Shown here: positions 37,082 to 61,847 of the stretch, piece by piece | Layout: every line of letters starts with the position of its first letter | How positions within the stretch are numbered: position 1 is the stretch's first letter | Made by a program: the position numbers and the translations under genes | The notes under the pieces: model-generated | Told to the model about the DNA's origin: nothing | Database searches by the model: none | What the model saw: only the letters and a program-made list of their open reading frames with translations | Source of the DNA: Corynebacterium singulare | GTDB lineage: Bacteria; Actinomycetota; Actinomycetes; Mycobacteriales; Mycobacteriaceae | Direction: 5' to 3' | NCBI RefSeq assembly: GCF_000833575.1 | Contig: NZ_CP010827.1 | Location: forward strand, 1,971,993-2,035,992 | DNA: 64,000 nucleotides

Positions 37082-37105
37082 GTGCGGCCTGAGGGGATCG
37101 AACCC
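37082..37105 (-). other. Left attachment repeat (attL), tRNA-Val 3' fragment
   Basis: A 24-base exact copy of the tRNA-Val 3' acceptor and T-arm sequence: GTGCGGCC followed by TGAGGGGATC and GAACCC on the plus strand. Flanking bases differ immediately on both sides from the right copy, marking the crossover core. The rest of a tRNA is absent here. Confidence 0.9.
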
Positions 37106-37231
37106 GTGGTTTATCCCTGTTGGTAAACGCACTGTTTAGCGGTGTTTTTAGCGCTCCTGCACTGGGTAGAAACTCTACCAAACCCTGCGCGTGCAACAAA
37201 CGTGCAATAACTCGAATAAGGAGCGCCTGTA

Positions 37232-37471
37232 ATGGATACAGCGACGAAGATGGACGGGCTAAGTATCCCGTTCTTAGTGAGCGTGAACACCGTGGAAGGA
37301 CGGCTACAGCTATCGCATGATGCTGTGCTGAAAGACTGGCACCCGTTGGTGTCCCCGGTGCTGGAATACGCCCGGCGCGCCGGGCTGTGCGTGCTGCACG
37401 ATGACGAAAGCGATAACGACTATTTCGTTTCTGGCCGTGAGCGTGAGAGGTGGTTTATCCCCGGTGTTTAA
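37232..37471 (+). CDS. Small element-encoded protein (79 aa)
   Basis: First gene inside the integrative element. The ATG at 37232 follows AAGGAG 8 bases upstream. The 79-residue protein contains VSPVLEYARRAGLCVLHDDESDNDYFVSGRER (start VSPVLEYARRAG), suggesting an alpha/beta single domain with acidic loop. No family recognised. It overlaps the next small ORF by 8 bases (GTG start), implying coupled translation. Confidence 0.6.
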   Translation: MDTATKMDGLSIPFLVSVNTVEGRLQLSHDAVLKDWHPLVSPVLEYARRAGLCVLHDDESDNDYFVSGRERERWFIPGV

Positions 37472-37634
37472 CTACAAACTCGAAACGCTAGCCAACGGTG
37501 TTCGTCTTACCTACGAATTGCCGTATCCAAAGCATGTACCAGCGTCTGTAACCGAATGGATAGCTAGCCAAGATATGACGCGGATTAGTACCAGCGTTTC
37601 CGGAACTACAGCGACACAGGTCTACGTAGCCTAG
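37464..37634 (+). CDS. Small element-encoded protein (56 aa)
   Basis: A 56-residue protein, MFNYKLETLANGVRLTY at the start, read from GTG 37464 overlapping the previous stop. Earlier in-frame starts would be embedded in the upstream gene. It has a beta-rich look with TRISTSVSGTTATQVYVA at the end. A strong terminator follows 8 bases after its stop. Function unknown. Confidence 0.45.
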   Translation: MFNYKLETLANGVRLTYELPYPKHVPASVTEWIASQDMTRISTSVSGTTATQVYVA

Positions 37635-37641
37635 GAACACG

Positions 37642-37677
37642 AACGCCCCGGTCCTTTTTCAAGGTACCGGGGCGTTT
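37642..37677 (+). terminator. Intrinsic terminator inside the element
   Basis: AACGCCCCGGT (37642-37652) pairs with ACCGGGGCGTT (37666-37676) around a 13-base loop, followed by TTCTGG. It ends the two small left genes and stands between them and the minus-strand genes to the right. Confidence 0.8.
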
Positions 37678-37691
37678 CTGGCTTTGTAGAC

Positions 37692-37862
37692 TTATGCGCC
37701 TGCCATAGACGACATAAGAAGGGCCGGGCCTGCTGCGCTGGAACCAACGGCAAGGACAATTGCCGCTAGGCCACCGAAAAAGACGCCAGCGAGAGTTTTG
37801 AGACTCTCCGGATTAAGCATTTCCGGATTATTGATAAGTAGTTCCATTAGGTTAGTGAGCAT
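37692..37862 (-). CDS. Small membrane protein in the element (56 aa)
   Basis: A 56-residue protein starting MLTNLMELLINNPEML with one hydrophobic helix (LAGVFFGGLAAIVLAVG) and a short Ala/Ser/Met tail. AAAGGAATTTAC before the ATG is a good ribosome site. It lies downstream of the serine recombinase on the same strand. Size and single helix recall holin-like, toxin-like or superinfection-exclusion peptides of mobile elements, but no family is recognised. Confidence 0.6.
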   Translation of the reverse strand: MLTNLMELLINNPEMLNPESLKTLAGVFFGGLAAIVLAVGSSAAGPALLMSSMAGA

Positions 37863-37929
37863 GTAAATTCCTTTGCTTTGGAGACAGAGACCTGCTCATA
37901 TTACCCGACACAACCCGCGTACGGTGCAT

Positions 37930-38481
37930 TTAGCTATTCTCCAAAGCACGATAAATGCTAGGACGTGAAACCCCGTAGCGACGGGCGATTTCTGCGATTG
38001 ATACGCCAGCGGCCTTAAGTTCTACAACTTCATTAACCTGTGACGAGGTTAGCGATGGTTTACGACCCTTGTATTTTCCTTTGGCCTTTGCAATGGCGAT
38101 ACCCTCACGTTGGCGTTCTTTGATTAGTGAGCGCTCGAATTCCGCTACTGCACCAAGCATGTTGAGCAAAAGATTATTCATAGCAGAGTCCTCGCCAGTA
38201 AAGACGAGATTTTCTTTCACGAACCGGACGGCAACGCCTTTGGTGTTTAGTTCTTCCACTATCCCGCGCAGGTCAACGATGTTGCGGGCGAGTCTGTCCA
38301 TAGAGTGCACTACGAACACGTCCCCCTTGCGGGCGTAGCGGATGGCAGCACTAAGCTGCGGGCGGTTTGCGTCTTTGCCGCTGGCCTTGTCCGTAAACAT
38401 TTCGTCTACGTCTACGTCTGATAACTGGCGTTCTTCGTTCTGGCCGTAAGAACTAACGCGCTGGTATCCGATTATTGACAT
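37930..38481 (-). CDS. Serine recombinase (resolvase/invertase family)
   Basis: A 183-residue small serine recombinase. The catalytic serine is Ser10 in GYQRVSSYGQN; the arginine-rich active-site region is VVHSMDRLARN, and the helix MLGAVAEFERSLIKERQREGI is the dimer/regulatory helix (start MLGAVAEFERS). The C-terminal HTH reads VSIAEIARRYGVSRPSIYRAL, typical of Tn3-resolvase/Hin-type proteins. In the element it may resolve dimers or invert a segment; no inverted target pair was found. The start ATG 38481 precedes a region with GTGTAC/GTACAC repeats that may be its site. Confidence 0.92.
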   Translation of the reverse strand: MSIIGYQRVSSYGQNEERQLSDVDVDEMFTDKASGKDANRPQLSAAIRYARKGDVFVVHSMDRLARNIVDLRGIVEELNTKGVAVRFVKENLVFTGEDSAMNNLLLNMLGAVAEFERSLIKERQREGIAIAKAKGKYKGRKPSLTSSQVNEVVELKAAGVSIAEIARRYGVSRPSIYRALENS

Positions 38482-38956
38482 TGTGCCTGTGTCCTTTTGT
38501 GAGAGTGTACCGGGGTGTACGTTGGAGTCTATAACCCGGCGTACACAGTGTCAATAAATGGGGATTGGCACCCTATCGTACAGGGGATACGTGCACCGCC
38601 CCCGGTGTCCGCAGGGGTATAGCCTATCGGACACCCTCGCAGGGACTACCGCACACACTGGGTGTGGATTGGGCAGGCTTTGCCGCAAGTTTGTGGCTGA
38701 GTTGGGATTGCAACACCTAGGCTTGCACTTTGGCACGGACAACAACGACAAGGAGCCGCCACACCGCTAGCGTCCCCCGCTAACGGCACAGCCCCCTTGT
38801 GCGGTTTACGAAGCTGCGGGCCTCTCTCGCACTTCAAGCAGGTGCCCGATAGGGGCAGGGGCTATGCCCCCGCCCCCGCATAGCCGACCGAATCGTATAG
38901 CGCCCGCACGCCCGTGCCGGGGTTGCGAAGTCGATGAATTTAATTCGTCAACAAAC

Positions 38957-38986
38957 TTGACAGCGGCGTGTGCCATAGGGCATACT
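38957..38986 (+). promoter_or_regulatory. Candidate sigma-70 promoter for the HNH/ATPase genes
   Basis: TTGACA at 38957-38962 and CATACT at 38981-38986 with an 18-base spacer, in the right position to drive the rightward genes of the element. An ORF-like 24-codon leader starts 16 bases after the -10. Confidence 0.5.
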
Positions 38987-39001
38987 GAGGGGTGCTCAGA
39001 A

Positions 39002-39076
39002 ATGCCTAAACCCCCGGCAAGCTACTACTTGACGGGTTGGTCTTTTTTAGTTCTGAGTTTGGTCTGTTCACCCTGA
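39002..39076 (+). CDS. Possible leader peptide ORF (24 aa)
   Basis: ATG at 39002 with GAGGGGTG about 8 bases upstream opens a 24-codon frame (MPKPPASYYLTGWSF at the start, ending VCSP). It lies just after the candidate promoter and 54 bases before the HNH gene. It could be a leader peptide that governs the downstream gene; chance is not excluded. Confidence 0.25.
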   Translation: MPKPPASYYLTGWSFLVLSLVCSP

Positions 39077-39130
39077 GGGCGTTGGTAGCAACCTTAGTCG
39101 ATGCACTGAGTTTGCGCAAGCGCCTCCGCT

Positions 39131-39844
39131 TTGAGAGAGGAAGATTTAAAGATTTCGAGATTTATTGCTACGCCAGAATTCCGTGCACGCCGGACGGAGT
39201 TGGTAGAAATTGGACTACGCCAGTGCACACGCTGTGGTGAGATAAAGCCCCTTGAATCCGGCTTTGATAACGACCGCACCGGAGCCGACGGCAAAGCTGG
39301 CCGGTGCAAGGACTGCCGCAACGCCAGTGCCCGTGAGCGTCACAACCGCAACGACGGACTGCAAGGCGCATTGGATAACGGTTTCAAGCGTGCCACGAGG
39401 GCAGGCAGACGCCGCAGGAAGATCACTGTCGAGCATCTTCTACATACGTGGGAGCGCAACGGTATTGACCCGTGGAAGTGTTATTACACCGGCGTTGCTT
39501 TAACCCGCGAACCTGGCCTACCGAACACGCGTCAGCTTGACCATATTGAAGCTTTGGCGATTAAGGGCAGCGCTGGCCACACAGCCGGAAATATCGTGCC
39601 TGCAGCCGCTTCGTACAACGGGTATAAGCACGACCACCGCGCGGTAACGCGGTATCTCAACGCACCGGAGCACCTGGCCCCGATTGCCTCCTACGCCGGT
39701 CTAGGCGATGGCATGGCCGGTGTTGACGATTCCGGCACACCCCTTGTCCCGGCGCGTGTTGAGTTCGCCAACACGGAGGATGACGCGGTTACGCCGCCGC
39801 AGATGGGCTACTGCCAGTGGCTTAAGACGTTCGCCATGGCCTAA
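39131..39844 (+). CDS. HNH-type endonuclease with zinc ribbon
   Basis: A 237-residue protein. An N-terminal zinc ribbon reads CTRCGEIKPL and CKDCRNASAR (four Cys). The HNH-like core follows with LDHIEALAIKGSAGHTAGNIVPAAASYN, where the catalytic His (DHIE) and the trailing N and H positions fit a bba-metal nuclease (start LDHIEALA). It resembles phage and mobile-element HNH nucleases. The first in-frame start, TTG at 39131, has no ribosome site, so the true start is uncertain; no ATG lies near the N-terminus. It may nick DNA for replication or mobility. Confidence 0.78.
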   Translation: MREEDLKISRFIATPEFRARRTELVEIGLRQCTRCGEIKPLESGFDNDRTGADGKAGRCKDCRNASARERHNRNDGLQGALDNGFKRATRAGRRRRKITVEHLLHTWERNGIDPWKCYYTGVALTREPGLPNTRQLDHIEALAIKGSAGHTAGNIVPAAASYNGYKHDHRAVTRYLNAPEHLAPIASYAGLGDGMAGVDDSGTPLVPARVEFANTEDDAVTPPQMGYCQWLKTFAMA

Positions 39845-39927
39845 GCCTTGCTTTGACTGTCCCGGTGTGGATGCCCTGCACCGGGCCTTAGGCATGGGCA
39901 ACTAGTTTTCGATGTAAAGGAGGATTA

Positions 39928-40950
39928 TTGAATAACACCGGATATACAGATGCCGAAATAGAAGCGATGGTAGATGAATATTTTTCTTCACTGCTACCGG
40001 AACGTTCCGCACAGGATTGGTTGGATTTATTCGACAACGACCTAGATGAATGGATTTACCCCGGTATCCTTTGCGATTCCTACACCATGTTCGTTGGCGC
40101 ACCGAAGTCTGGTAAGTCTCAGACCGCTGTAGAGGTAGCGGCAGCTATCACACGCGGCAGGCCGTTTCTTGGCGTGGATTCAACGCGCGGTAACGCGCCG
40201 GGCAACGTTTTATTTATCACCACGGAGTCCAATGGCCCGAAGGAGAATCTAGGCCGTCTCATAGCCGCAGACGCTGACATTAATCGCGTATGGATTGACC
40301 AAGCCGCCGCGAGCGGTACAGTGCCTGAGGCTTCATACACAGCCGCAGAGGCTGGCAACCTGTCTCTAGTCGTTGTTGACCACATTCCTGGCCTATGCGC
40401 CAGCAGAGGCGTGGACACTAATTCATTAGACGCGGTTGGGGTTATTTTATCCGTGGCTAGCAGGTTCAACTCTGCGAACGTCCCTGTGCTGTTTGTGCAT
40501 CACGCTAACAAAGGCTACAGCGGTGACCCCGTAGGGGCTGCGAGCGGGCATAGTTCTATCGCTGGCCTTATGCGTCATCTTGTTGGCTTCAAAATGGCGG
40601 GTAACAAAGCGTTCACTACGCTGCGGTTTAACGGCAATATCACCGGTGGCTTTGATGACCCCGTGAAGGTGTCCTTAGGCCGCAACGGACGGTTAAGCTT
40701 GGTTAATTCGCAGCAACCGAAGGCAGCGACTGGCACAGACGCGGCAGAGGCTGTTATGGCTGAGATTGCTAAATCAATCCCCGGCCCCACCACGAAAAAG
40801 GCGGTGTATGAAGCGGTGGCGTATGAGTTAACCAAGCGCGGCTTCACGAACAATCGCGGTAGTTCCTACAGTGTTGAGTCGATTAAGAAGAAACTGAACG
40901 GTATGGGCACTCTGGTATGGGATGCGAAGGAGGGATTTGCACAGTCTTAG
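39928..40950 (+). CDS. RepA-like AAA ATPase (helicase-type P-loop)
   Basis: A 340-residue ATPase with Walker A GAPKSGKSQTAV near residue 55, a helicase-like ITTESNGPKENL, Walker B LVVVDHIPGL and the sensor region VPVLFVHHANKG. This is the AAA_25/RepA (RecA-like hexameric helicase) fold found in plasmid RepA and in phage satellites. A C-terminal winged-helix-like region (AYELTKRGFTNNRGSSYSVESIKKKL) may bind the origin. The start is TTG at 39928, 6 bases after AAAGGAGG. It sits 83 bases after the HNH gene in the same direction. It probably replicates the excised element. Confidence 0.85.
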   Translation: MNNTGYTDAEIEAMVDEYFSSLLPERSAQDWLDLFDNDLDEWIYPGILCDSYTMFVGAPKSGKSQTAVEVAAAITRGRPFLGVDSTRGNAPGNVLFITTESNGPKENLGRLIAADADINRVWIDQAAASGTVPEASYTAAEAGNLSLVVVDHIPGLCASRGVDTNSLDAVGVILSVASRFNSANVPVLFVHHANKGYSGDPVGAASGHSSIAGLMRHLVGFKMAGNKAFTTLRFNGNITGGFDDPVKVSLGRNGRLSLVNSQQPKAATGTDAAEAVMAEIAKSIPGPTTKKAVYEAVAYELTKRGFTNNRGSSYSVESIKKKLNGMGTLVWDAKEGFAQS

Positions 40951-41038
40951 GTTTTCCCGTTTTCTACGTTTATGCAGGTCACAGCGTTACTGTGCGGGAA
41001 ACTGTTTTCCCGTCGGTTTACGTTTCCGCAGGTCACAG
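40951..41038 (+). repeat. Two imperfect 34-35-bp direct repeats after the ATPase gene
   Basis: GTTTTCCCGT at 40951 and again at 41004, each continuing into TACGTTT and GCAGGTCACAG, form two imperfect direct repeats whose starts lie 53 bases apart, immediately after the RepA-like gene stop. The position and direct orientation recall iterons at a replication origin. Confidence 0.6.
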
Positions 41039-41156
41039 GCGTGGGATTCGGGAAATCGGGCTCCTTATACACTCACTGTCGTTCGTTTATCCTCTAAGCG
41101 ACAAACCTGTTTGGCGCTGCGCTTTCTTCGGAGAGTGAGTATTATCGACCGGCTTA

Positions 41157-41530
41157 GGCGGTCGTTGGTACGAACGATGACCGCCGGAGGGGAGCAGGCT
41201 AGGGGCTGCTCCACGAAGGACTCTAAGAACCAAGGGAGTGGCATAAGGGCTTATGCCGCTACCGTAGGCGTTATACCGACCAGTGGGAGCGGAGTTATCC
41301 CGCTCCTAAGGGGACGTAGGTTACCCACCTGAGCAGGTTCAGCACCTGCGAAGGGGGCGGTGTGGTTGTGGACTAGGTAGTAGCGGGTAGCTGCTGCCTA
41401 GGGCACGAAGGACTAATAATGTTCCGAAGGGGAAAGCAATAGCGCTTTCCCACGAAGGAAGTTGATAGACCTGAGCATGAACCTGCGAAGGGCTACGCAC
41501 TGTCCTGTGCAATGAGCCTAAGCCTCATTG
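41157..41530 (+). ncRNA. Candidate structured RNA: row of hairpins with CGAAGG motifs
   Basis: Hairpins in order: GGCGGTC/GACCGCC (41157-41185), GGAGCAG/CTGCTCC (41191-41212), AGTGGCATAA/TTATGCCGCT (41237-41260), GGAGCGG/CCGCTCC (41286-41306), GCAGGT/ACCTGC (41333-41349), a 12-bp stem CTAGGTAGTAGC/GCTGCTGCCTAG with GU pairs (41373-41401), GGGAAAGC/GCTTTCCC (41430-41451) and CAATGAG/CTCATTG (41510-41530). CGAAGG occurs at 41214, 41349, 41406, 41425, 41453 and 41486, four times directly after a stem. No ORF spans it. I match it to no known RNA family. The strand is inferred from the repeat reading; a replication-origin DNA role is an alternative. Confidence 0.5.
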
Positions 41531-41539
41531 CCCTAACTG

Positions 41540-42676
41540 CTAATCGTCAAGGTCTACCCGGCGCATAAGCTCTACTGGCCGGGCCTCCCTTGACTTCATG
41601 TACACGTTAACAATGGTTGATACGTCTTCCTGACCTAGGATACGGCCTATCTCCCTAGGGGTAGCGCCTGCCTCTGCAAGGCGCGTGATGATGAAGTTAC
41701 GGCCGTAGTGCGGCGTGATGGATTTATCAATCCCGGCGCGTTGCTTAGCCCGGTTGAACACGCTGCGGTACGAAGTATCAAAGACCACCGCACCAGCTTC
41801 GGTAAGCGTTGCGTACTCCTCCGGATACGTGGCAAAGGTTTTTAGGTGCCTAATCACCACCGGAACGAACTCACGAAGCAAAGGCACCGTGCGGTATCCG
41901 GCGTTCGTCTTAGGAGGATGAAACGCCATCTTTACACCACCGTTGCCGTTGGGAACTCTGACTAGGTTTCCTTCAACCCGAACACTGGCACCGTTGGTGT
42001 CGAATTCAAAGTGTTTGTTCTTCACGGCTAATGCTTCGCCTATCCGAAGTCCATGGAAGAGACACAACACGGTTATGAGGCGGTAGCGCTCTGGCACGTT
42101 GTCCAGAATGGCCCTTAGCTCCGCTGTGGTTGGAAGTTCTTTAGCCTTTGGTTTAGCCCGTGTCCTGGCCGCGTTAATCGCCACCGGGTTCGTAGGCAGA
42201 TAACCGTATTCCACCGCCAGCGCTATCGCAGCCCTTAGCTTGTGATACGCCCTAGCATTGCGGTGGTTCGATGCCGGGAACGTTTGTACGGTCTCCTGCC
42301 ACCACGCCGCGACGGCCACCGGCGTGAGCTTATCCACCGGAATAGCGCACAGCGTTTCATTTCCCAACACCCGTGCTGTTACGAATTCTTCGTACGCCTT
42401 GTACGTTGAATCCCGCACCTGTGGTTTGGTCAACGCCAGCCAGTGCCTCACCATCTCCCCTACCGTAGGAATTTTGGTCTGCGCTTTCTTCACCACCGGT
42501 GGTTGCCATGCGCCTAGGTCAATCTCCTTGCGCACCGCAGCCAACCACGCCAGTGCGTCTAGCCGGTCTCTGAACGTGTGCGGTGCTTTATAGCGTTGTT
42601 TATCCGGCCCTTGGTAGGACGCTTGCCAGCGTCCGCTTGGTAGTTCGCGCGTAGCACCCCATGAATTCCGTGCCAT
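41540..42676 (-). CDS. int: Tyrosine integrase of the element
   Basis: A 378-residue phage-type integrase. An AP2-like N-terminal arm-binding region (GRWQASYQGPDKQRYKAPHTF) precedes a SAM-like core-binding domain (VGEMVRHWLALTKPQVRDSTYKAY). The catalytic domain carries FHGLRIGEAL (Arg), PHYGRNFIITRLAEAG (His-x-x-Arg) and VNVYMKSREA (Tyr nucleophile). It lies 147 bases from the right attachment site, as expected for site-specific insertion into tRNA-Val. The ATG at 42676 is used; longer in-frame starts (42703, 42790) lack a ribosome site. No excisionase gene is recognisable. Confidence 0.92.
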   Translation of the reverse strand: MARNSWGATRELPSGRWQASYQGPDKQRYKAPHTFRDRLDALAWLAAVRKEIDLGAWQPPVVKKAQTKIPTVGEMVRHWLALTKPQVRDSTYKAYEEFVTARVLGNETLCAIPVDKLTPVAVAAWWQETVQTFPASNHRNARAYHKLRAAIALAVEYGYLPTNPVAINAARTRAKPKAKELPTTAELRAILDNVPERYRLITVLCLFHGLRIGEALAVKNKHFEFDTNGASVRVEGNLVRVPNGNGGVKMAFHPPKTNAGYRTVPLLREFVPVVIRHLKTFATYPEEYATLTEAGAVVFDTSYRSVFNRAKQRAGIDKSITPHYGRNFIITRLAEAGATPREIGRILGQEDVSTIVNVYMKSREARPVELMRRVDLDD

Positions 42677-42822
42677 AATCGTGCAACATCTCCCCCGAAA
42701 CATGTACGCGGGCGGAGTACACGTGTCGGTAGTTGGGTTATACTGAAATCGCCCTGTGCAGGGGATACGGTGGAAACACAAAGAGGCCAAACCCCCGAAA
42801 AGGGGGCCTGACCTGCTGTTTT

Positions 42823-42846
42823 GTGCGGCCTGAGGGGATCGAACCC
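42823..42846 (-). other. Right attachment repeat (attR) inside tRNA-Val
   Basis: The second copy of the exact 24-base repeat, from just beyond the discriminator base through the acceptor 3' strand and T-arm of tRNA-Val. Because the complete tRNA is on this side, the gene stays functional after insertion. Confidence 0.9.
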
Positions 42847-42896
42847 CCGACCTACTGGGTGTAAACCAGTTGCTCTTCCAGCTGAGCTAAAGCCGC
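42824..42896 (-). tRNA. tRNA-Val (anticodon TAC)
   Basis: A complete 73-base cloverleaf on the minus strand: acceptor GCGGCTT with AGGCCGC, D-arm AGCTCAGCTGGAAGAGC, anticodon stem ACTGG/CCAGT with loop TTTACAC (anticodon TAC), T-arm with GGTTCGATCC, discriminator A. CCA is not encoded. The 3' half is the insertion site of the integrative element. Confidence 0.96.
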
Positions 42897-57854: not shown

Positions 57855-60800
57855 GCCTCATCCCCGCTTACGCGGGGAGCACTCCACAAGCTTCAGGCCG
57901 GGGTACGCGTGCCCGGGCTCATCCCCGCTTACGCGGGGAGCACCATTCCAGTGAGTCCGCGCCCTCGAGGTCATCGGGCTCATCCCCGCTTACGCGGGGA
58001 GCACGCCTTCTTATCGACAGCCGAGTCTACGTAACCCGGCTCATCCCCGCTTACGCGGGGAGCACAGCAAAGTGGGCTGGTACCCCTCAAACGCCACGGG
58101 CTCATCCCCGCTTACGCGGGGAGCACGGTGGCCCTTATGGTGGTCATACTGCCGGAACCGGCTCATCCCCGCTTACGCGGGGAGCACTATGTCAGCGCCG
58201 TTCGTTCCCTCCCAACCACGGGCTCATCCCCGCTTACGCGGGGAGCACAGCGCCCTTCCTTCCTATCGGGCTCGATAACCGGGCTCATCCCCGCTTACGC
58301 GGGGAGCACCTGTACACTTTTCGCCCGTTGTACCAGGCTTCCGGCTCATCCCCGCTTACGCGGGGAGCACTCTGTACCCGCGAGGACATGATAGCTAGAT
58401 TTGGGCTCATCCCCGCTTACGCGGGGAGCACTCCAGTTCCCGGTCGATGGCATCAACCGCCGAGGGCTCATCCCCGCTTACGCGGGGAGCACCTGTACAC
58501 TTTTCGCCCGTTGTACCAGGCTTCCGGCTCATCCCCGCTTACGCGGGGAGCACTCTGTACCCGCGAGGACATGATAGCTAGATTTGGGCTCATCCCCGCT
58601 TACGCGGGGAGCACTCCAGTTCCCGGTCGATGGCATCAACCGCCGAGGGCTCATCCCCGCTTACGCGGGGAGCACCCCGACGCCGGTACGCTCCTCAAGT
58701 CTGCCCTGGGCTCATCCCCGCTTACGCGGGGAGCACGCTCGTGGTCTTGGATTACGCAAAACACCCAGCGGCTCATCCCCGCTTACGCGGGGAGCACCCC
58801 ATCTCGGTATTGAGCGCGGCCTGAGCAATCGGCTCATCCCCGCTTACGCGGGGAGCACGTGGTGGGCTCAGCGCCCAGGCGCTCACCATCCGGCTCATCC
58901 CCGCTTACGCGGGGAGCACGGTGGCTTCGGTCAGGTAGGTTTCTTCGTCGCGGGCTCATCCCCGCTTACGCGGGGAGCACGGTTCCCTTGGTGACTAGTT
59001 CTCCTTCTCGCCAGGCTCATCCCCGCTTACGCGGGGAGCACCGGTCCCTACCCAATGACGTGACACCTCACCAGGGCTCATCCCCGCTTACGCGGGGAGC
59101 ACGACTCCCTAAAGTCCTCTACGTTGTTAGTGCGGGGCTCATCCCCGCTTACGCGGGGAGCACGGAGTCGCCGTTAGTCACCTTCCGCAGCCATTGGGCT
59201 CATCCCCGCTTACGCGGGGAGCACTAACCGACGAGAGTGTCGCGGTACGACTCGAGGGGCTCATCCCCGCTTACGCGGGGAGCACAGCCTGACACCAGGG
59301 CATCACCAGACGGTGGTGGGCTCATCCCCGCTTACGCGGGGAGCACCACACCCGATGAACTACGCGCCGGAGCTAAGGGGGCTCATCCCCGCTTACGCGG
59401 GGAGCACCCAGGTCATAGCGGGTTGCAACGCGGATCGCGGGGCTCATCCCCGCTTACGCGGGGAGCACCCGGTAAATTTGAGGTTGTTTCAGCATGGTTG
59501 GGGCTCATCCCCGCTTACGCGGGGAGCACATGGTGTGGATGGTCGCGCCCAGGCTGCGGTAGGGCTCATCCCCGCTTACGCGGGGAGCACTTTTCCTTTC
59601 TGCTGGGCTCTCTGCCTTACATCGGCTCATCCCCGCTTACGCGGGGAGCACTTGAACGCTGTCGCCATGCCCGACAGTGTGCGGGGCTCATCCCCGCTTA
59701 CGCGGGGAGCACTCGCAGGGTGTCGTCTGCGTCGCTGGAGTCGAGGGCTCATCCCCGCTTACGCGGGGAGCACGGCAGAGGAGTTCGAGTATGGGCGCGC
59801 CATGGGGGCTCATCCCCGCTTACGCGGGGAGCACGCCGTAGTCAGCGCATACTGATTCACGTCATACGGCTCATCCCCGCTTACGCGGGGAGCACTCAAC
59901 CTACGTCCCCTATGACTGGTGCTATTTGGGCTCATCCCCGCTTACGCGGGGAGCACGGTATTCGTAAAGCGTGGAATGCCGTCGGAAAAGGCTCATCCCC
60001 GCTTACGCGGGGAGCACTCCGCAATATCCTCGCGGACTTCCGCCAACTTCGGCTCATCCCCGCTTACGCGGGGAGCACGCGGTGTCGGCTAGGGAGGCCT
60101 CTCATTCTGCGGGCTCATCCCCGCTTACGCGGGGAGCACCACAGCGTGAGCTTGAGGTTTTAGCGGCTGACGGGCTCATCCCCGCTTACGCGGGGAGCAC
60201 CCTACTCAGTTGGCGGCGGCTGACCCCCAGACGGGCTCATCCCCGCTTACGCGGGGAGCACGGCCTTCTGGCCTTGGTCGTCTGGTGCCGAATGGGCTCA
60301 TCCCCGCTTACGCGGGGAGCACTGGCTGGTTCTCGGTCTGAGTAAGCACGTAGAGGGCTCATCCCCGCTTACGCGGGGAGCACGCAAACATCACCACAGG
60401 GACAAACGGGACAAAGGGCTCATCCCCGCTTACGCGGGGAGCACAACCGCGACGCCACCTTCCCCGCACGCCTCAGCGGCTCATCCCCGCTTACGCGGGG
60501 AGCACGTCGAGATGGTGTGGGACGGCGCGCAGGCGGTGGGCTCATCCCCGCTTACGCGGGGAGCACGAAGCATGATCCGCCGCTGCCGTACATGCGTTGG
60601 GCTCATCCCCGCTTACGCGGGGAGCACCACTTGAAGCTCTTTCTGCCGCAATCGCTGATGGGCTCATCCCCGCTTACGCGGGGAGCACAAATATTGCCCT
60701 TAACAGTAGCCATCAAAAACCGGCTCATCCCCGCTTACGCGGGGAGCACAGCACGATGAGGCAGGAGATGATGATTAATAAGGGCTCATCCCCGCTTACG

Positions 60801-61847
60801 CGGGGAGCACCTCGGAGGCCTCATCGGCTTTATCCTCCACGCCGGCTCATCCCCGCTTACGCGGGGAGCACGGTGCCGTGCGACATTCCGATGGCCATCT
60901 GGTCGGCTCATCCCCGCTTACGCGGGGAGCACGGCTACGGCGGTGCGTAGTGTCTCGATTTGGAGGGCTCATCCCCGCTTACGCGGGGAGCACGTTAGTG
61001 GGTGCTGGTTAGAGTTTCTTCCAGCCGGCTCATCCCCGCTTACGCGGGGAGCACGCCCTGCTGTGGCACTGCATGCCTGCAACCCCCGGCTCATCCCCGC
61101 TTACGCGGGGAGCACCTTGGCCTCGTCGATGGTGAGGGGTTCGAGCGGGGCTCATCCCCGCTTACGCGGGGAGCACTTCCCGACCCTTGGTGCTCTCGAC
61201 TTCCACATGGGCTCATCCCCGCTTACGCGGGGAGCACTGGGCAGCGATGACATAAGTGCCCTTCGGCACCGGCTCATCCCCGCTTACGCGGGGAGCACTG
61301 TGTTCTTTGAGACGGATATTGGGCCTAGTGGGGCTCATCCCCGCTTACGCGGGGAGCACTTCTTCCTCCGATGGTTCCTCTTCTGGTGCCGGGGCTCATC
61401 CCCGCTTACGCGGGGAGCACGTGACGGCAAGGTCTTCGGCCTGTTCACCAACGGGCTCATCCCCGCTTACGCGGGGAGCACATGTGCTGAAGGTTGCGCG
61501 TCTCCCCCCGGATGGGCTCATCCCCGCTTACGCGGGGAGCACTGCGCGTCGTGGATTTGCTTGCGAGTTGGTGTGGGCTCATCCCCGCTTACGCGGGGAG
61601 CACCCACCCCCCACGGGGGTTAGGCGGTGAGGTAGGGGCTCATCCCCGCTTACGCGGGGAGCACTTTAAGCGTGGCCGTGGGCCTGGCAAGAACGCGGGC
61701 TCATCCCCGCTTACGCGGGGAGCACATGTCACGAGTCATTGCGCCAGCGAACGCAATCGGCTCATCCCCGCTTACGCGGGGAGCACTATTCGGAATGAGT
61801 ATGGCTAGAATCCGCCTTCGGCTCATCCCCGCTTACGCGGGGAGCAC
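57855..61847 (-). CRISPR. Type I-E CRISPR array, 66 repeats and 65 spacers
   Basis: A 28-bp repeat, GTGCTCCCCGCGTAAGCGGG followed by GATGAGCC in the transcribed (minus) sense, alternates with 33-bp spacers. The first repeat starts at 57855 and the last at 61820, exactly 65 periods of 61 bases apart. The hairpin CCCCGC/GCGGGG is the Cas6e target. The repeat family and the cas genes identify subtype I-E. The leftmost repeat differs at its second plus-strand base (C for G), as expected for the leader-distal end, so the oldest spacers are on the left and the newest at 61787-61819. All reading frames crossing the array are artefacts. Confidence 0.98.
58310..58675 (-). repeat. Tandem duplication of three repeat-spacer units in the array
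   Basis: Spacers 8, 9 and 10 (58310-58342, 58371-58403, 58432-58464) occur again, in the same order, as spacers 11, 12 and 13. The 183-base block 58310-58492 equals 58493-58675. It leaves 62 distinct spacers. Confidence 0.95.

Follow-up and report, generated by a model that had tools for sequence, protein, structure and literature searches.

What does a row of hairpins do between the gene of a RecA-type ATPase and that of an integrase? The question is raised by a stretch of 64,000 nucleotides (the window) from Corynebacterium singulare, whose genome is one contig of 2.83 Mb. Here the hairpin array is placed between an AAA_25 ATPase gene and a convergent tyrosine integrase gene, inside an integrated element with the following features.

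37082..42846: integrated element of about 5.8 kb, bounded by two identical 24-bp copies of the tRNA-Val 3′ end, at 37082 and 42823.
37930..38481, minus strand: serine recombinase of the resolvase/invertase type (PF00239, 1.7e-35; phrog_125, 1.3e-63).
39131..39844, plus strand: endonuclease VII/HNH-like protein (phrog_1035, 8.5e-24; no Pfam match at 1e-3).
39928..40950, plus strand: AAA_25 RecA-type ATPase, a replication-protein candidate (PF13481, 2.8e-16).
41540..42679, minus strand: tyrosine integrase, convergent with the ATPase (PF00589, 4.2e-14; phrog_1, 9.8e-46).
42823..42896, minus strand: tRNA-Val, the attachment site (tRNA search; 24-bp repeat at its 3′ end).

The serine recombinase, the endonuclease VII-like protein, the AAA_25 ATPase and the tyrosine integrase are the recognised genes of the element; a 56-aa ORF with a hydrophobic stretch (MLTNLMELL...) was also seen at 37692-37862 on the minus strand. 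Both an integrase and a tRNA attachment site, by which phage satellites are judged, are present, and we have here a small integrative element, possibly a phage satellite. One report states that small prophage-like elements of actinobacteria may be satellites (PMC10023795), and another lists candidate satellites of Mycobacterium (PMC10654092). Scanning of the four element proteins against Pfam and PHROG recognised neither a packaging gene nor a separate iteron-binding protein or primase. The recombinase, endonuclease and integrase gave no primase-domain match, and the ATPase matches part of some primase-helicase PHROGs. A search with PADLOC for a defence function of the element gave weak matches only.

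The original prediction confined the structured region to 41157..41530. This interval turned out to be too narrow: the module begins at 40951, directly after the ATPase stop codon, and comprises the following parts.

40953..41055: four copies of the element-specific, iteron-like repeat CGGGAAA/TTTCCCG, at 40953, 40995, 41006 and 41049 (0 of 200 shuffles reach four).
40968..40986, plus strand: GTTTATGCAGGTCACAGCG site, copy 1 (pattern GTTTNNGCAGGTCANNGC and alignment).
41022..41038, plus strand: GTTTCCGCAGGTCACAG site, copy 2 (from the sequence).
41061..41077, plus strand: degenerate CCCC(C)TTATA box with the sequence CTCCTTATACACTCACT (identified by eye, the pattern having missed it).
41129..41164, plus strand: first conserved array block, CGGAGAGTGAG...CGACCG-gcttagg-CGGTCG (CGGAGAGTGA.TAT is common to relative G196).
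41191..41212, plus strand: hairpin of 7 pairs, then ACGAAGG (strict finder).
41237..41260, plus strand: hairpin of 10 pairs including one G-T, identical in relative G265a (strict finder; comparison).
41284..41308, plus strand: hairpin of 9 pairs including one G-T (strict finder).
41333..41349, plus strand: hairpin GCAGGT/ACCTGC, in G265a GCAGGC/GCCTGT, with one compensated pair and one change from G-C to G-T (comparison).
41373..41401, plus strand: hairpin of 12 pairs, with two G-T pairs retained in G265a (sequence; comparison).
41430..41451, plus strand: hairpin of 8 pairs, with CGAAGG on either side (strict finder).
41509..41531, plus strand: final hairpin of 8 pairs, separated by 8 bp from the integrase stop codon (strict finder).

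Motif positions, a hairpin finder and shuffles agree that the hairpin row and its six CGAAGG motifs are real. The number of stems depends on stringency: where at least eight had been claimed, a strict finder (at least 7 pairs, at most one G-T) returns five, at 41191-41531, but a relaxed finder detects 10 helices over the 590 bp that follow the ATPase. Within the 64-kb window, at least five strict hairpins per 400 bp occur only at 41200 and in a CRISPR array at 57.8-61.9 kb. The interval had also been described as free of protein genes; a 136-aa ORF (40922-41332) does overlap the array, but we judge it spurious. Stems within one array are unlike each other in sequence. Judged from their sequence, the units differ too much for CRISPR-like repeats, and toxin-antitoxin RNA repeats were likewise rejected, with units that differ and no toxin gene seen behind the array.

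Do related elements carry such a module? At the DNA level, a search of phages and plasmids with the array gave nothing beyond matches of 29 bp and 41 bp, and the G265a array had no match in plasmids. The ATPase protein matched nothing in phages or plasmids at 1e-8. Viral contigs gave no match to the window ATPase, nor viral or genome contigs to a three-row ATPase alignment, and one viral contig was matched by the ATPase of the G265b element. Bacterial genomes were more productive, with ATPase matches in 30 of 242 genomes of the genus at 1e-3 and in 44 of 401 genomes of the family at 1e-8. The genus sample consisted of the best 8 of these 30 genomes by E-value (nine loci, the window included), together with two weaker genomes and a further G127 match. 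The family sample comprised the best nine genomes outside the genus out of the 44 (ten loci in six genera: g35, g36, g49, g50, g54 and g56), the 33 weaker ones being left out. An IMG/VR record was added through a search with the box pattern described below. The resulting 20 loci (nine from the genus, ten from the family and the IMG/VR record) were thus picked by match strength, not blind, and G265b and the IMG/VR record, being 98% identical, are not independent. The original prediction had pointed to the interval between integrase and ATPase genes in related small elements as the place to look, and it is in such relatives that the structure was found.

Directly behind the ATPase gene the module begins, in many elements, with iteron-like repeats; the box CCCC(C)TTATA...CCCC follows, and after it a row of between 3 and about 40 hairpins. 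In 11 of the 20 loci an element-specific 7-mer is repeated significantly, its count being reached by no more than 1 of 200 shuffles; nine lack one at that threshold, G127 (3/200) and G173 (7/200) coming near it. The repeated word is CGGGAAA in the window, TCGGTCA in G196, AAGTGCA in G010, GTGCACA in G265a, GTGGTGA in G450 and GCTGCAC in G336. In 11 elements picked for repeat position, 3-6 copies lie no more than 200 bp from the ATPase stop codon. CGGGAAA occurs five times within 13 kb, four of them at 40953..41055, so that the window has the cluster of element-specific short repeats by which iteron origins are recognised. A site like GCAGGTCA(C/G)AG was found by eye in 16 of 20 loci (G419a and G419b have it on the opposite strand, and G343, G408, G470 and G612 give no clear site). 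The pattern GTTTNNGCAGGTCANNGC gave 18 matches in 61 genomes of the genus and one in the reversed control.

The box comes next. By pattern, CCCC(C)TTATA or CCCCCTATA or a near variant, followed by a second C-run, is present in 19 of 20 loci, the window copy being the degenerate one. The box pattern CCCCYTTATRYATCCCC has three matches in 242 genomes, all of them in these elements, and none in the reversed control. By eye, a hairpin stands between the two C-runs in 12 loci, and its stem varies in sequence. Over these 12 loci, chosen by eye and with segments cut by hand, the stem lengths add up to 65, where 41.2 would be expected (z 8.9); taken singly, 5 of 12 box hairpins are significant, each being equalled in fewer than 20 of 1000 shuffles. 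One stem is common to G408 and G470.

The hairpins after the box, short and almost perfectly paired, are in excess in 18 of 20 loci, with 3-9 per 420 bp compared with 0.5-1.1 in dinucleotide shuffles. None of 100 shuffles matches the count in 14 loci, one does in G196 and in the IMG/VR record, four in G265b and eight in G366; G419a and G419b have the box without a hairpin excess over dinucleotide shuffles. The control inside the ATPase gene holds 0-3 hairpins in 19 loci, and in two loci the array hardly differs from it (three versus three in G366, three versus two in G196). At the other extreme, the G173 array contains about 40 hairpins that are similar to each other. Many of those at L017 10400-12220 have a GTAG...CTAC foot, and the array is flanked by two inverted IS3-like copies. 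The ATPase hits L060, L061 and L062, which belong to other element types, show no significant hairpin excess. A search of the class gave six matches, of which three new ones, all outside the family, were examined. G790 and G745 have no hairpin excess, and G862 does have an array together with the box: C-runs stand on either side of TTAGTAGAA, with flanking inverted repeats, and there are six hairpins, a number reached in 0 of 100 simple shuffles. Counting pairs within an array is circular, the hairpins having been found by their complementarity, and we therefore relied on shuffles and on comparison between relatives.

Such comparison shows how the arrays change. G265a, the closest relative of the window array, matches it in two blocks of 78% and 83% identity, the latter a 101-bp match into which the block at 41129..41164 falls. 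It has the same hairpins and CGAAGG linkers in a different order, with extra units. Between G265b and the IMG/VR record changes are few (1/84 in stems, 3/38 in loops, 7/354 in linkers), and a 23-bp stretch spanning one hairpin unit has been gained or lost. Enough substitutions to judge selection on pairing are found in a single pair, G408 and G470, which are 90% identical and differ at 6 of 156 stem positions versus 24 of 131 in loops and linkers (Fisher p 7e-5); of the six stem changes, read from G408, three keep a G-T or standard pair and three give A-C. With stems read from G000, the window array, the comparison with G265a gives 5/36 changes in stems versus 5/52 elsewhere in block 1 and 11/50 versus 28/87 in block 2, and it is not clear that stems are better conserved than the rest. 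Among their pairs one is compensated on both sides, several have gone from G-C to G-T and several are broken, partly as a result of the alignment. Covariation, the check initially proposed for these stems, is thus visible in part: stems change less in G408/G470 and one compensated pair is seen in G265a, but the comparison of the window with G265a is not clear.

Gain, loss and movement of whole modules is also what one would expect if the palindromes were mere transcription punctuation between convergent genes or a neutral expanding family similar to REP/BIME clusters. The 40 or so similar hairpins of G173 and the stems not clearly conserved between G000 and G265a fit this explanation as well, and ATPase and integrase indeed converge on the array in the window and in its genus relatives (with one ORF between them in G265a). 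Yet the next presumed gene is co-directional with the ATPase in G408, G470, G336 and G612, a search of the window array for T-tract terminators gave none, and stems are more conserved than loops in G408/G470. Nor would neutral repeats be expected to recur behind the same box, at the same place, in other genera. REP/BIME clusters, as generally known, are alike in their clustered palindromes and in a short motif at the stem, but the stems here differ within one array and keep a fixed place behind the ATPase, and a REP-type transposase was not recognised among the window-element proteins scanned. Altogether, we consider punctuation or neutral expansion unlikely.

The gene next to the ATPase brings up another explanation, in which the array is a branched-DNA substrate of the endonuclease VII-like protein, used for linearising or packaging the element. 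Endonuclease VII cleaves cruciforms, and an endonuclease VII-like gene is present in all six genus elements scanned, beside the ATPase in five and elsewhere in G265a. On the other hand, four neighbours in other genera (L093, L097, L098 and L100) lack any PHROG match, HNH genes are common in actinophages anyway, and the scan of the four window-element proteins recognised no packaging gene. A role as nuclease substrate therefore seems very improbable to us.

The CGAAGG motif, noted at the outset together with the hairpins, proved to be of narrower distribution than the hairpins. It lies on the plus strand at 41214, 41349, 41406, 41425, 41453 and 41486. Four of these copies were said to follow a stem directly, and this holds with a one-base gap at 41214 and 41453 and, at 41349, with the motif sharing the last C of the stem, but the copy at 41406 comes after a four-base gap. 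CGAAGG has 66 copies on both strands of the whole 64-kb window, against 45 expected, and the 590 bp after the ATPase hold six on the plus strand and none on the minus strand, which 0 of 200 shuffles reach. On the ATPase strand there are six copies in the window, five in G265a, four in G265b and five in the IMG/VR record (0 of 200 shuffles each), so that the four enriched arrays together show 20:0 in favour of that strand. Elsewhere, G366 has two copies on the ATPase strand, G127, G450, G419a and G419b one each and the other eleven none. CGAAGG is a trait of one array type within the genus, marking one strand there. The suggested ribosome-acting RNA, with GAAGGA as a Shine-Dalgarno core, finds no support in CGAAGG itself: the motif is enriched in only four of 20 arrays, and ribosome binding is therefore not the function of the module as a whole. 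A Shine-Dalgarno decoy as the role of the whole module was rejected on the same count.

The strand bias of CGAAGG is compatible with a wider alternative, in which the array is a transcribed modular structured RNA, either a noncoding RNA or a 3′ or 5′ UTR of an element mRNA, whose hairpins and linkers bind a protein repeatedly. In the window, the fold of 40951-41540 has a z-score of −6.6 on the plus (ATPase) strand versus −3.6 on the minus strand, and its local fold too is stronger on the plus strand, but in six other arrays the local fold is about equally strong on both strands. G-U pairs, preserved in RNA and not in DNA, had been noticed in the stem at 41373-41401, and both G-T pairs are indeed there and are retained in G265a. 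Within stems, G-T outnumbers A-C by 74:32 over 19 arrays (shuffles expect 54% G-T), by 13:2 in G000 and G265a (p 0.017) and, in a looser count of seven arrays, by 40:15. However, G173, where composition favours G-T, contributes 25:3 of the 74:32, and leaving it out gives 49:29 (p 0.14). Apart from one compositionally biased array, the window type alone shows a clear G-U excess. Moreover, the stem changes between G408 and G470 go both ways (three pair-keeping versus three A-C), and the looser count gives nine A-C and zero G-T for the stems of G127. A exceeds T in the linkers of 14 of 19 arrays, but array loops are not A-rich. A co-directional reading frame begins directly after the array in G408 and G470. 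Against transcription, a scan of 40800-41700 found nothing resembling a promoter or a terminator, the box, by reading of its sequence, does not fit a TANNNT −10 element, and G127 and G505 have terminators inside the array, as judged by eye. Satellites such as PLE do produce abundant noncoding RNAs (PMC7567579). No Rfam family reached its gathering threshold in the array interval (the best was TPP, E 6.9, 13.9 bits versus 54.3), and a known RNA family was rejected. GOLLD and ROOL phage noncoding RNAs are likewise long structured stretches in mobile elements near a tRNA, but the array has no Rfam match and no fixed architecture, and the number and sequence of its hairpins vary from element to element. 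We regard a transcribed RNA as possible but doubtful. The one-strand signals of the window type are what one would see with RNA, or with that strand in the form of single-stranded DNA.

A replication origin is the reading we prefer. The ATPase is a candidate Rep-like protein with a predicted RecA/DnaB/RepA-type fold and a putative initiator or helicase role. A profile of its family matches RSF1010 RepA (1g8y) weakly, at 8.2e-4, ranked behind THR5 and RAD51 homologue 4. Its structure model (pLDDT 83.9) resembles Rad51, DnaB and RepA in a Foldseek search (RepA 1olo at 1.2e-9), and KaiC and DnaB in a second structure comparison, with matches that cover mainly residues 35-266. The last 70 residues are modelled as helix-helix-helix-strand-strand, read here as a winged helix. 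The presence of iterons next to a Rep-like gene speaks for an origin with hairpins formed on one unwound strand, and since element-specific repeats, a conserved box and structure without conserved sequence all lie beside such a gene, an origin is the best reading. Thus, of the three roles first offered (a noncoding RNA acting on ribosomes, a packaging signal and replication-initiation hairpins), the last is best supported, by the repeats and box between the Rep-like ATPase and the array. We infer that 41157..41530 is the distal half of the replication origin of a small integrative element, a role for the array to which we would give an even chance.

In RSF1010, oriV is arranged as iterons, an AT box and ssi hairpins. 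The RSF1010 origin (ssiA/ssiB, RepA helicase) resembles the module in its ATPase (AAA_25, in the window a candidate RepA type) and in the order of repeats, short AT box and hairpins. It differs in that RepB′-type primase and RepC were not recognised among the window-element proteins scanned and in having two facing ssi sites, whereas the module has many hairpins in a row. Iteron origins, such as the PLE RepA/ori of Vibrio satellites, similarly have a Rep-like gene beside element-specific repeats in a small integrative element, but the Rep candidate in the window is a RecA-type ATPase, and we know of no iteron origin whose repeats are followed by a hairpin row that varies and can reach about 40 units. 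Among the points against an origin, the TTATA part of the box is very short for an unwinding element and, to our knowledge, no known origin uses as many as the roughly 40 hairpins of G173. For Vibrio satellites, RepA, an origin and abundant noncoding RNAs are described (PMC7567579). The pRN1 plasmid offers a precedent: to replicate, it requires a stem-loop immediately 3′ of its rep gene, whose structure is conserved and whose sequence is not (PMC4234260). The module shares with this family of origins a structure directly 3′ of the rep gene that is kept without sequence (18 of 20 loci, by hairpin excess), but the pRN1 origin has a single stem-loop, about 100 nt long, and a Rep of the primase type, whereas the window element has many short hairpins.

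If the module is an origin, it could work as follows. The element would excise, and the C-terminal domain of the ATPase would bind the repeats and open the box. The strand next to the opened box would then fold into the hairpin row, which might keep the strand open, or might offer docking and priming sites to a helicase, a primase or a priming protein of the host. What the cognate protein recognises may include the linkers that follow the stems (in the window type CGAAGG, always on the ATPase strand). Tentatively, we also suggest that the array is a new modular cis-element, made of 3 to about 40 hairpin-plus-linker units that are gained, lost and reshuffled while pairing is kept and one strand is read, and that together with iterons and box it is a hallmark of widespread small actinobacterial mobile elements. 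Each unit of such a cis-element could be the docking site of a single protein molecule, active in replication or binding RNA; with one molecule per unit, array length would therefore set the competitive strength of the element. Repeats, box, hairpins and a Rep-like gene are known from origins, and it is the long reshuffled hairpin row that is unfamiliar. Among the matches listed in a search of the open-access literature, titles and the beginnings of abstracts contained no description of such an array. As an origin, it would represent an unusual design, with interchangeable hairpins behind a RecA-type ATPase in several actinobacterial genera, and would offer a sequence-independent signature for recognising an overlooked class of small integrative elements. 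It could also provide replicons for actinobacterial genetics and a way to test hairpin rows on single-stranded DNA. Were the array an RNA instead, it would add a new class of modular RNA to those of mobile elements.

Several neighbouring observations are worth recording. The sequence [GC]C[AT]GGTCA, found at the origin module, is also present at 42809-42816 of the window (minus strand). More generally, it lies 5-8 bp after the 3′ end of the presumed attachment tRNA or tmRNA in 9 of 10 elements (the window, L016, L017, L018, L019, L021, L058, L059 and L102) and in one of six other tRNAs; a host factor or the integrase may bind there, or the motif may belong to a tRNA terminator. The CRISPR array of the window (57861-61843) has 66 repeats with an exact 61-bp period and is followed by cas genes to about 63919. 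The pair beside it we take, from the sequence, to be cas1-like and cas6e-like, and its spacers had no match beyond 15 bp to the elements fetched. The GTTTNYGCAGGTCA(C/G)AG site is found also at L022 7325-7345, near the start of a Rep-like ORF that, by reading, appears to be of the rolling-circle type, and at 1284-1312 of the unrelated Rhodococcus phage NiceHouse, in a stretch without annotated genes. Finally, the IMG/VR record (G983; L132/L133, L123) is phage-like and 40.9 kb long, with an integrase-like ORF near one end and, at the other, a close copy of the G265b element, which brings an integrase of its own.
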